Assembly (NCBI RefSeq): GCF_001425665.1
Contig: NZ_LMCX01000002.1
Location: forward strand, 806,001-870,000
Direction of reading: 5' to 3'
Length of the DNA: 64,000 nucleotides
Source of the DNA: Yonghaparkia sp. Root332
GTDB taxonomy: Bacteria; Actinomycetota; Actinomycetes; Actinomycetales; Microbacteriaceae
Shown: piece after piece, positions 26,725 through 38,975 of the stretch
Layout of the letters: each line of letters starts with the position of its first letter
Numbering within the stretch: position 1 is the stretch's first letter
Translations under genes and position numbers: made by a program
Notes under the pieces: generated by a model
Seen by the model: only the letters and a program-made list of their open reading frames with translations
Told to the model about the DNA's origin: nothing
Databases searched by the model: none

Positions 26725-27075
26725 TGGACTCCTCGCGCCATCGTGTTCCTCGTTCTCGCGATCATCGGCCTCGTCGGCACGTGGACGTACAACGTCATCG
26801 CGATTCTTCAGCGCAACGACTTCGTGGGGGACTGGTTCAATAATGGCCCGGCCGTCGGCTCGCTCACGACCGACCTGCTGATCATGGCGGTCGCGGGGTG
26901 CGCCTTCATCGTCATCGAGGGGCGGCGCCTGGGCATGAGGCACCTGTGGGCGTACATCGCCTTCTCGGGGCTCACGGCGATCGCGTTCACCTTCCCGCTC
27001 TTCCTCGCGAACCGCGAGCGCCGCCTCACCGAGCTCGGCGCCACCGAGCCCGCGGAGGGCATGGCACCCTCGTAA
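26713..27075 (+). CDS. DUF2834 membrane protein
   Basis: 120 residues with three membrane helices (IVFLVLAIIGLVGTWTYN; LLIMAVAGCAFIVIEG; YIAFSGLTAIAFTFPLFLA). The motif GTWTYN and the spacing are typical of DUF2834; function unknown. The Pr6Pr gene starts two bases after its stop, so the two form a small operon. Confidence 0.85.
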   Translation: MTRHWTPRAIVFLVLAIIGLVGTWTYNVIAILQRNDFVGDWFNNGPAVGSLTTDLLIMAVAGCAFIVIEGRRLGMRHLWAYIAFSGLTAIAFTFPLFLANRERRLTELGATEPAEGMAPS

Positions 27076-27077
27076 CG

Positions 27078-27785
27078 GTGAGCGAGCGCGCGACGGCACG
27101 GCGGGTGGTCGGCGGCCTGCGCCTGCTCGCGGCGCTCATCGGGGTCATCGCGCTCGTGGCTCGCTTCCAGTACGGGCTCGGCTTCAGCGTCTTCATCGCC
27201 TCCAACTTCTTCGGCTACCTCACCGTGCAGTCGAACATCGCGGCGATCGCGCTCGGCATCGTCTCGGGCGCGCTCGCGCTGCGCCGCTCCCGCGATCCGG
27301 CGTGGATGCCCGTGGCGCGCGTCGCCGTCCTCAGCTGGATGCTCGTGGCCGGCATCGTCTTCGCGCTCCTGGCCTCGCAGGCGGCGACCCGCGGCTACCG
27401 GCTCGACGTGCCGCTGAGCGATCAGCTGCTCCACTTCGTGCTGCCCGCATGGCTGCTGCTCGACTGGCTGCTCTCGCCGGGGGAGCGCCGCACGGATCCG
27501 CGCGTGATGCTCATCGTCGTCGGCTACCCGCTCGGCTGGGGCCTCGCGACGCTCATCCGCGGCGCGATCGTCGGCTGGTACCCGTACTTCTTCCTCGACC
27601 CCGACCAGGTGAGCGGCGTGGTTGAGCTGCTCGCCTACGGAGCGGCCGCGCTGGGACTGTTCGCGCTCGTCGGAGCGGTCGTGCGCGTGCTGCCGCGCAT
27701 CCCCCTCGAACGGATGCCCGCCCTCAGCCGGTCGTGGGCTCGCGCCCGACCACGAGAGGAGCGAGGCCCGCGAGCGCCGCGGTGA
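27078..27785 (+). CDS. Pr6Pr-family membrane protein
   Basis: 235 residues with six predicted helices and the family pattern FGYLTVQSN after the second helix, then HFVLPAWLLLDWLL and WYPYFFLDP. This is the FAR-17a/AIG1-like (Pr6Pr) group of actinobacterial membrane proteins of unknown function. The GTG follows the DUF2834 stop by two bases. The 3' end overlaps the convergent amine-oxidase gene by 62 bases. Confidence 0.85.
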   Translation: MSERATARRVVGGLRLLAALIGVIALVARFQYGLGFSVFIASNFFGYLTVQSNIAAIALGIVSGALALRRSRDPAWMPVARVAVLSWMLVAGIVFALLASQAATRGYRLDVPLSDQLLHFVLPAWLLLDWLLSPGERRTDPRVMLIVVGYPLGWGLATLIRGAIVGWYPYFFLDPDQVSGVVELLAYGAAALGLFALVGAVVRVLPRIPLERMPALSRSWARARPREERGPRAPR

Positions 27786-29166
27786 CCGCGTCGCCCTCGC
27801 CGAGCGCGCCGAAGCCGATCGCCCGCGCGCCCGCGACGACGCCGACGAGCACGGGCTCGCCCGTCACGGCCCCCAGGTTGACCCACAGCGGCACGGCCGC
27901 CTCCGGGTCGGCGAGCACCCAGATCGCGGCCTCCTCCTCCCAGAAGGGCGCGTCGAAGCGCAGCCAGATCGTCTCGACCGCTCCGACCCCGAGGCGGGCG
28001 ATCGCGGAGTCCTTGACGGCCGGCAGCTCGAGGTCGATGCCGCGCGCCTGCAGCACGCCGAGCGGAGCCGTGAGCAGGACGCGGTCGGCCGAGAACGAGT
28101 CGCCCACCCCGAGCCGGACGCTCACGTCGTCGTCGCCGACCGCGATGCCCGTGACGGGGCTCGAGAGCTGCACGTCGACGTCCTCGAGCAGAGCGTCGAC
28201 GAGCCGGGCCCACCCGCCCGTGACGAGGTTCTCGGCGCCGAGCGGCAGCTCGGCGAGCCCCTCGCGCGTCGAGAGCTCGCCCGTCGCAGCCCCCAGCCGG
28301 GGCTCGACGAGCCCGGAGAGCGCGAGCGCGATCGACTGCGCTTCGCTCGGCGCCCCCTCCATGCCGGGCGTGCCGTCCCACGGCCTCAGGAGGGCGAGCG
28401 CGGTCGCGAGCGCCACGTCGGGCTCGACGGCGGCGGCGGCCTGGCGCGCGGCCTCCAGTACGGGCAGCAGGACGGATTCGAGCGTCGCCGAGGTCGAGGG
28501 CCGCGTGATCGCGATCGGTTCGCCTGCCTCGTCGAACCCGCGCGCCGCATCGGCGATCGCGACGTCGACGCCCGCGCGCACGAGCCGCTCGAGCAGGTCG
28601 TGCCGACCGATCTCGCGCACCCACTGCGCGCCGAGCTCGACCGGCACGGGCCACGCGTCGCTGTCGATCGTATGGATCCGGCCGCCCGTGCGGCCCCGCG
28701 CCTCGAGCACGATGACCTCGAGGCCCTCCGGGCCGTCGTCGACGAGCAGGCGAGCGGCGGCCGCGCCGGCGATGCCCGCCCCGACGATCACGACGCGCTC
28801 TCCGGGCGCGGCGACCGCGAGGAGCTCGGCGGCGGCGCGCTCGCCCGACGCGAGGGCTCCGTGCACCGTGGATGGCGCATCCGCCGAGGTGGCCTCGCCC
28901 GCGAAGAACAGCCGATCGCGCCAGGGGGAGGCGAGCTCGTCGCGCAGCCGCGGCGACTCGCCGACGGGCAGGAAGCTCGTGGATCCGCGCGAGAACGAGT
29001 CGCCGAGCCAGTCGCTGCGGGCGACGCCGGCCGGGCGGGGCGGGCCGACCGCGGGCGCGGGCGTCGGCTCGGGCGAGGGCTGCGGCGGCTCATCGGTGCA
29101 CGCCGCGAGCACCGCGACGGAGAGGCCCGTGGCCCCGACCAGGAAGGTGCGCCGTGTGATGCCCAT
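27724..29166 (-). CDS. Flavin amine oxidase-like lipoprotein with permuted domain order
   Basis: 480 residues. A twin-arginine-type signal (TRRTFLV) ends in a lipobox with Cys23, followed by a Pro-rich linker, so the protein is probably exported folded with FAD and lipid-anchored. Residues 53-115 (DWLGDSFSRGSTSF, LFFAGEATS, TVHGALASGERAA) are the stretch that normally closes the C terminus of flavin amine oxidases. Only then comes the N-terminal-type FAD motif VVIVGAGIAGAAAA (G129-G134), the acidic LEAR (155) and GGRIHT. The protein ends where the first block would normally begin. This looks like a circular permutation. Substrate unknown. The -10 TAGGCT is 8 bases before the ATG. Confidence 0.85.
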   Translation of the reverse strand: MGITRRTFLVGATGLSVAVLAACTDEPPQPSPEPTPAPAVGPPRPAGVARSDWLGDSFSRGSTSFLPVGESPRLRDELASPWRDRLFFAGEATSADAPSTVHGALASGERAAAELLAVAAPGERVVIVGAGIAGAAAARLLVDDGPEGLEVIVLEARGRTGGRIHTIDSDAWPVPVELGAQWVREIGRHDLLERLVRAGVDVAIADAARGFDEAGEPIAITRPSTSATLESVLLPVLEAARQAAAAVEPDVALATALALLRPWDGTPGMEGAPSEAQSIALALSGLVEPRLGAATGELSTREGLAELPLGAENLVTGGWARLVDALLEDVDVQLSSPVTGIAVGDDDVSVRLGVGDSFSADRVLLTAPLGVLQARGIDLELPAVKDSAIARLGVGAVETIWLRFDAPFWEEEAAIWVLADPEAAVPLWVNLGAVTGEPVLVGVVAGARAIGFGALGEGDAVTAALAGLAPLVVGREPTTG

Positions 29167-29272: not shown

Positions 29273-29320
29273 ACTGTCTCAACCAGTAATGGTTGGCTGG
29301 TGATCACTCACCGACCAGCG

Positions 29321-29404
29321 TGCGCGAGGGGGGACTTGAACCCCCACGCCCTTTCGGGCACTAGCACCTCAAGCTAGCGCGTCTGCCATTTCCGCCACCC
29401 GCGC
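29321..29404 (-). tRNA. tRNA-Leu (anticodon GAG)
   Basis: 84 bases on the minus strand. The acceptor stem GCGCGGG pairs with CTCGCGC (one G-T), discriminator A, no encoded CCA. The anticodon arm CTAGC-TTGAGGT-GCTAG gives GAG, which reads CUC/CUU; CTC is the leading leucine codon in these genes. A long variable arm (TGCCCGAAAGGGCG) and the T arm GGGGG-TTCAAGT-CCCCC are typical of class II tRNA-Leu. Confidence 0.95.
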
Positions 29405-38162: not shown

Positions 38163-38165
38163 CCG

Positions 38166-38975
38166 GTGGCGGTCCGTCCCGCCCGGCCCCGTAACGCCGA
38201 GGGCCGGATGTCGCTCGGCGAGCACCTCGTCGAGCTGCGCAAGCGTCTGACCATCACGGCCGTGACGATCATCCTCGCGGCAGTGGGGGGGTGGTTCCTC
38301 GCCGATCCCGTGTGGGCGGCGCTCAGCGAGCCGCTGAGGGTCGTCGCCGAGGCTCAGGGCCGCGATGCCACGATCAATTACACCGCCGTCACCGAGGCGT
38401 TCGACACGAAGCTCGTCATCGCCCTGGTCCTCGGGGTCGTCATCGGCTCGCCGGTGTGGCTCTATCAGCTCTGGGCCTTCATCGTTCCCGCGCTGCACCG
38501 CCGCGAGAAGCAGTACGCCGTGGGCTTCCTCGGCGCCGCGCTCCCGCTGTTCCTCGCCGGCTGCGCCGCCGGCTGGTTCGTGCTCCCGCACATCGTCGAG
38601 CTGCTCACCGGCTTCGCCGCTGAGGGGACCGCGACGCTCCTGACCGCGAAGGTCTACCTCGACTTCTCTCTCAAGCTCATCCTCGCGATCGGTATCGGCT
38701 TCGTGCTGCCCGTCGTGCTCGTGGTGATGAACTTCGCCCGCGTGCTCATGGGCGCGAGCATCCTCAAGGGGTGGCGCTGGGCGATCCTGGCGATCACCCT
38801 CTTCACCGCGTTCGCGACGCCCGCCGCGGACATCATGTCGATGTTCATCCTCGCGATCCCGATGGTGGGGCTCTACTTCCTGGCGGCCGGGATCGCCGTC
38901 CTCAACGATCGACGGCACGCCAAGAAGGACGCCGCCCTCGCCGCGGAGTACGGCATCGACGCGGCCCCCGCATGA
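38166..38975 (+). CDS. tatC: Sec-independent protein translocase subunit TatC
   Basis: 269 residues with six membrane helices and the TatC signatures MSLGEHLVELRKRL at the N terminus (signal-peptide binding Glu) and ALHRREKQYA after the second helix. It recognises twin-arginine signals. GTG start three bases after tatA; the helicase gene overlaps its stop (ATGA). An internal ATG 14 codons later is possible but would cut before the conserved start. Confidence 0.95.
   Translation: MAVRPARPRNAEGRMSLGEHLVELRKRLTITAVTIILAAVGGWFLADPVWAALSEPLRVVAEAQGRDATINYTAVTEAFDTKLVIALVLGVVIGSPVWLYQLWAFIVPALHRREKQYAVGFLGAALPLFLAGCAAGWFVLPHIVELLTGFAAEGTATLLTAKVYLDFSLKLILAIGIGFVLPVVLVVMNFARVLMGASILKGWRWAILAITLFTAFATPAADIMSMFILAIPMVGLYFLAAGIAVLNDRRHAKKDAALAAEYGIDAAPA

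Follow-up and report, generated by a model that had tools for sequence, protein, structure and literature searches.

The minus-strand gene at positions 27724-29166 (-) of the 64,000-nucleotide stretch of Yonghaparkia sp. Root332 DNA analyzed here (the window) encodes a protein of 480 residues, with an ATG start and the N-terminus MGITRRTFLVGATGLSVAVLAACTDEP. The order of its segments is, as judged from profile matches, a circular permutation of that of the flavin amine oxidases. The best explanation overall, to which we give a probability of roughly 0.8, is that this is a circularly permuted FAD-binding protein of the MAO/LSD1 type that is predicted to be exported by Tat and lipidated, and that would be dehydrogenase-like in the Microbacteriaceae branch. 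The permuted order is conserved over two phyla, Actinomycetota and Pseudomonadota. An earlier reading of this DNA from the letters alone (the sequence-only reading) had already proposed the permutation as well as a Tat-like signal with a lipobox Cys23, and its residue numbers proved correct within a few residues. The features are listed in Table 1.

Table 1. Features of the permuted flavin amine oxidase-type gene and its convergent neighbor (positions in the window).
Feature	Position	Strand	Basis
Tat-type signal peptide, residues 1-22	29101..29166	-	TRRTFL motif, hydrophobic stretch; R5 and R6 invariant in 32/32 aligned sequences
Lipobox Cys23 (LAAC)	29098..29100	-	Invariant in 32/32 aligned sequences
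Pro-rich linker, residues 24-44	29035..29097	-	Sequence and alignment
Displaced C-terminal FAD block, residues 45-118	28813..29034	-	W..D.F.RGS ... FFAGEATS ... TVHGALASGERAA; PF01593 369-443
Short joint of the old C- and N-termini, residues 119-123	28798..28812	-	Spacing of the two profile matches
FAD dinucleotide-binding region, residues 124-184	28615..28797	-	VVIVGAGIAG, E155, RTGGR; PF01593 1-63 and PF13450
Remaining canonical chain up to the cut (new C-terminus), residues 185-471	27754..28614	-	PF01593 199-364
Thr399 at the conserved active-site Lys position	27970..27972	-	Alignment to spermine oxidase and KDM1B chains; canonical-profile position 272
Pr6Pr family membrane protein gene	27066..27785	+	NF038065, 96 bits, cut-off 30; start codon guessed

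Against Pfam PF01593, the window protein scored 169.9 bits (cut-off 19.8) in three stretches, which the genome scan placed along the gene as profile positions 369-443, then 1-63, then 199-364. This makes it a member of the family by score, in a permuted rather than the canonical linear order. A phmmer search of the PDB aligned query residues 42-117 with residues 405-481 of a spermine oxidase chain, 120-184 with 2-62, and 305-413 with 206-325. The segments are those of the family, each present once, in rotated order and with the old termini fused, as in a natural circular permutant.

A canonical profile of 430 positions was made from 26 canonical relatives, the long-branch rows L115, L135, L138, and L139 being left out. 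Rejoining the chain, a check proposed in the sequence-only reading, bore out the permutation: with the signal and the Pro-rich linker removed and the part from the Rossmann region to the end set before the front block, the window protein (scored under the identical locus L002) matched this profile without a break over positions 2-426 of its 430, at 295.7 bits, as compared with a best single stretch of 2-345 at 206 bits for the native protein. When the linker was retained, rotation brought no gain for the window protein (206.0 vs 205.9, single-stretch score) and raised the score for L103, L064, and L181; two canonical controls scored best unrotated. The same rejoining, with linker and signal out, was applied to a set of 77 permuted sequences, from which one unrelated ORF of locus L181, let in by a loose filter, was excluded. 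The median single-stretch score rose from 207 to 297 bits; 68/77 gained more than 5 bits and 9/77 showed no such gain, and the rejoined stretch covered at least 400 positions in 61/77, a length not reached in 16/77. In 73/77 permuted proteins, the tail match stops at canonical position 338-353; the front block begins at position 341-352 in 68/77, and the joint between both profile matches measures 4-10 residues in all 77 (5-7 in 73).

Profile classification of the ORFs of at least 250 codons in the sampled loci covered 161 copies, 131 of them permuted (many redundant) and 30 canonical. A second complete end block, which the sequence-only reading had named as one sign that would speak against a permutation, was found in none of these 161 copies, permuted or canonical. 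In one permuted ORF (L063, 574-2001 (-)), the first part of the displaced block, the W..D..RGS strand, is missing, and this member is perhaps degenerating. Among the best 60 of 782 PDB matches to the junction profile, no solved permuted structure was found, all 60 matching in two stretches. Since the only model, an AlphaFold prediction from three sequences (the window protein, L039, and L040), has a pLDDT of 35.5, the fold assignment rests on the profiles and on what is known of the family fold.

The distribution of the permuted order was followed by searching 299 sampled Microbacteriaceae genomes with residues 1-133, which hold the signal, the block, and the dinucleotide motif. This query was matched in 144/299 genomes, and a junction-spanning match (starting by residue 24 and ending at 132 or 133) was found in at least 100/299, several of which are single contigs; the rest of the matches listed lie mostly within the block. 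A contig scan with the single sequence gave two close, named relatives, Microcella sp. (L039, 90% identity) and Microcella alkalica (L040, 82%), both Microbacteriaceae, besides one weak match. R5, R6, and C23 are common to all 32 aligned sequences, in each of which the block precedes the dinucleotide motif and is missing from the C-terminal end. Outside the family, contiguous junction matches occurred in at least 4 genomes beyond the Microbacteriaceae in the order sample (396 genomes), at least 14 beyond the order in the class sample (394 genomes; L100 is cut by a contig end), and at least 4 beyond the class in the phylum sample (296 genomes), these three samples being overlapping ones rather than a census and the counts minimum numbers. 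Pseudomonadota, the phylum of a Burkholderiales genome, gave junction matches in at least 3/200 genomes. The ORFs of the junction matches beyond the family that were read showed the permuted order. In viral contigs, a single match was found, short and partial (L042, residues 124-170). Two plasmid searches returned 8 and 3 partially matching records; two from Haloarcula and one from Nostoc look canonical by coordinates, and Synechocystis records are also among these partial matches.

By its motifs, the window protein is a predicted Tat-exported lipoprotein, with a twin-arginine motif and a lipobox Cys, and the Tat plus lipobox pattern is present in 53/53 permuted sequences of the Microbacteriaceae. 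The 24 permuted sequences from outside this family comprise 7 with Tat signal and lipobox, 10 with a Tat-like signal without lipobox, and 7 with no convincing signal, the last two groups being sorted by eye and the pattern being loose. The sequence-only reading had also placed tatAC in the window. This was right for TatC, encoded at 38163-38972 (+) (PF00902, 190.8 bits); for TatA, a crude pattern, the sole approach used, found no match in the window.

A further suggestion, that the permutation serves to set the lipid anchor next to the FAD domain, perhaps for Tat export, was rejected. Four relatives in canonical order (L111, L113, L187, and L188) carry Tat/lipobox-like signals, and lipid anchoring as the purpose is also opposed by the permuted sequences that have no convincing signal (7/24) or a Tat-like signal with no lipobox (10/24). 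Because canonical Tat lipoproteins and signal-less permuted members both exist, the permutation is neither needed for export nor confined to it. Placing the anchor beside the FAD domain does not supply a reason either, as the N-terminus of the canonical order already enters the FAD-binding strand.

Two of these canonical relatives, L187:6245-7705 (-) and L188:4928-6598 (+), belong to the genus of the window sequence. When six congeneric genomes were searched with L187, a canonical-order gene was found in two (G137 and G275), where the permuted gene is absent, whereas three (G000, G074, and G189) have the permuted gene alone; in G235, neither form was found in this search, and the residues 1-133 query gave no match either. 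BLASTP of the window protein against L187 gave two main pieces in swapped order, with 32% and 54% identity. The four relatives have the type of export signal, the family, and the segments in common with the window protein, but they keep the canonical order and the active-site lysine, whereas the window protein is permuted and has Thr399.

Whether the permutation arose once was addressed with two maximum-likelihood trees. The first, with 44 permuted (rotated) and 28 canonical sequences (L116 and L134 dropped as duplicates), placed the permuted sequences in several groups, with 4 changes, and none of 200 bootstrap trees united them; a single permuted clade was not rejected by the AU test (p 0.28, or p 0.25 without L064-L067). 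The second, which included Pseudomonadota (33 permuted and 30 canonical sequences, permuted rows from a 15-locus list being left out for speed), gave 5 changes, again with 0/200 bootstrap trees uniting the permuted sequences, and an AU test that did not reject a single permuted clade (p 0.15). In this second tree, the permuted L181 from Pseudomonadota adjoins a canonical row (88/85), and the signal-less L064, L066, L067, L182, and L183, which come from two phyla and are the five of the set L064-L067, L182, and L183 that this tree contains, are grouped in a single clade with support (100/99), the signal-less L086 being placed away from it. The signal-less L064-L067, L182, and L183 have the same permuted order and cut as the window protein; they differ from it in having no convincing signal and in retaining the lysine, and they are shared by Actinomycetota and Pseudomonadota.

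Several independent permutations at one place, rather than one ancestral event, would explain why canonical groups part the permuted ones in both trees, why no bootstrap tree unites them, and why L181 stands beside a canonical row. We regard this as a serious contender whose chances fall somewhat short of even, as the AU tests leave one clade unrejected and as most members share the position of the cut and the length of the joint, although structure could constrain both. The common cut itself favors a single origin, with the proviso that the fold could dictate where the cut falls. A fuller history, in which a single ancient permutation gave rise to a cross-phylum clade of the MAO fold and the Microbacteriaceae branch, on losing the lysine later, turned into a flavin redox lipoprotein anchored at the surface and serving a new function other than amine oxidation, is offered tentatively and strikes us as rather doubtful.

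Profile positions 7, 30, 38, and 399, which hold residues of the FAD motifs (GxGxxG, Glu, RxGGR, and GE(A)T), are invariant in 77/77 permuted sequences. The active-site position gave a different picture. Profile position 272, i.e., Thr399 of the window protein, which we equate with LSD1 Lys661 through alignment and background knowledge of the family, holds Lys in 26/26 canonical relatives and in 21/24 permuted sequences outside the Microbacteriaceae (2 have Arg and 1 is truncated). Among the Microbacteriaceae permuted sequences, Lys is found in 12/53 only and Thr is the commonest residue (23/53), and the window protein is one of those without the active-site lysine of PF01593 (LSD1 Lys661 type). 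At profile position 371, an aromatic residue is present as 1 Tyr and 13 Phe of 53 in the Microbacteriaceae and as 20 Tyr and 4 Trp of 24 in the other permuted members; the Trp at position 302 is found in 50/53 Microbacteriaceae sequences, the other 3 being unaligned there. Twelve named NCBIfam subfamilies (HpnE, protoporphyrinogen oxidase, CrtI, and others) were matched, none above its cut-off, and the best of them, HpnE, scored 55.4 bits against a cut-off of 283.05.

Loss of the active-site lysine lowers oxygen reactivity in the amine oxidase family. The Microbacteriaceae branch may have ceased to be an ordinary oxidase, and the loss points to flavin oxidoreductases of a dehydrogenase-like kind, in which reactivity toward oxygen is weak or altered, more than to classical amine oxidases. 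The dehydrogenase-like role is proposed because the lysine of the lysine-water-flavin motif is lost; the 12/53 Microbacteriaceae members that still have Lys weaken it. The same loss, with the variable aromatic at position 371, would also fit a pseudo-enzyme, that is, an FAD-binding surface protein without redox turnover in this branch. This we consider unlikely, as the FAD motif residues and the Trp at position 302 stay conserved and as the gene is kept in about one third of the sampled family genomes (at least 100/299), which suggests that it is used.

The permuted MAO/LSD1-type protein, which we prefer, would have arisen through circular permutation of its gene, with the old N- and C-termini fused via a short linker, probably when tandem copies fused and the product was then trimmed at either end; no intermediate of this tandem-fusion route was seen. 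Both old termini of an MAO-type chain lie in the FAD domain, close together in the fold, and the new termini presumably stand where the last substrate-domain helix returns to the FAD domain. The protein would fold around non-covalent FAD in the cytoplasm, be exported by Tat, be lipidated at Cys23, and work on the outer face of the membrane, the permutation as such not being tied to export. As the motifs of both old chain ends fall within the first 185 residues, cofactor binding could start before the chain is complete. It should be noted that intra- and intermolecular packing are indistinguishable from the order of segments alone, so that the front block might instead complete the FAD site of a neighboring chain in a domain-swapped, obligate dimer. 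Such an assembly is improbable: the joint of 4-10 residues in 77/77 sequences is consistent with old termini lying near each other in the fold, and no sign of swapping was seen.

The Pr6Pr gene of the window is convergent with the oxidase gene, and their 3' ends overlap at 27724-27785. Profiles identified the Pr6Pr family, both for the window copy and in a family-wide search, and homologs in the neighborhoods were recognized by BLAST clustering. By this clustering, a Pr6Pr homolog lies tail-to-tail with the permuted gene in 22/22 Microbacteriaceae neighborhoods read, with a 3' overlap in 15/22 (stop codons not counted), and is present in 0/16 neighborhoods outside the family. Since 128/150 family genomes carry Pr6Pr, often in several copies, its co-occurrence is uninformative and only the adjacency is informative; as the genes are convergent, this adjacency is a weak sign of shared function. 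In two genomes, Pr6Pr matches are present on both sides of the permuted oxidase gene (G076 C1:1544567-1547080 and G139 C3:273298-275812). A search of largely open-access literature for Pr6Pr gave no paper. On the other side, just upstream of the oxidase gene and on the same strand, is a tRNA-Leu (GAG) at 29320-29404 (-).

An assembly chimera, a gene-calling error, or a remnant of tandem duplication, plausible for one odd gene, can be dismissed, as the permuted gene is conserved in at least 100/299 family genomes, several of them single-contig, and beyond the family, as it has the same tail-to-tail neighbor in every Microbacteriaceae neighborhood read, and as two blocks occur in 0/161 classified ORF copies.

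Few flavoprotein folds have been studied as much as the MAO/LSD1 fold, and the permuted genes look like a real natural rewiring of this well-known enzyme family. A natural permutation of the fold present in many genomes of two phyla is a ready test of how the folding, FAD loading, and Tat export of a protein depend on its chain connectivity, and a genus with canonical-only and permuted-only species allows a close comparison. The loss of the lysine in one branch is a route to study how oxidase chemistry is lost or changed. Annotation that is blind to segment order would probably not flag such genes as unusual.

A search of the largely open-access literature on permutation and flavin or amine oxidases gave no recognizable description of a permuted flavin amine oxidase, and none is described in the portions consulted of PMC11334425, PMC3637537, and PMC1683948. 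In the portion consulted, PMC11334425 reports a circularly permuted FMN-bind1 domain in multi-flavinylated proteins. That domain resembles our case as a permutation in an extracytosolic bacterial flavoprotein; as described there, it differs in not belonging to the amine oxidase family and in having its flavin covalently attached. With the PF01593 family (MAO, polyamine/spermine oxidase, and LSD1/LSD2), the window protein shares the end and middle profile segments and the GxGxxG, RxGGR, GEAT, and TVHGA motifs, and it differs from that family in its permuted block order, in Thr399 in place of the active-site lysine, and in its signal of the Tat lipoprotein type.
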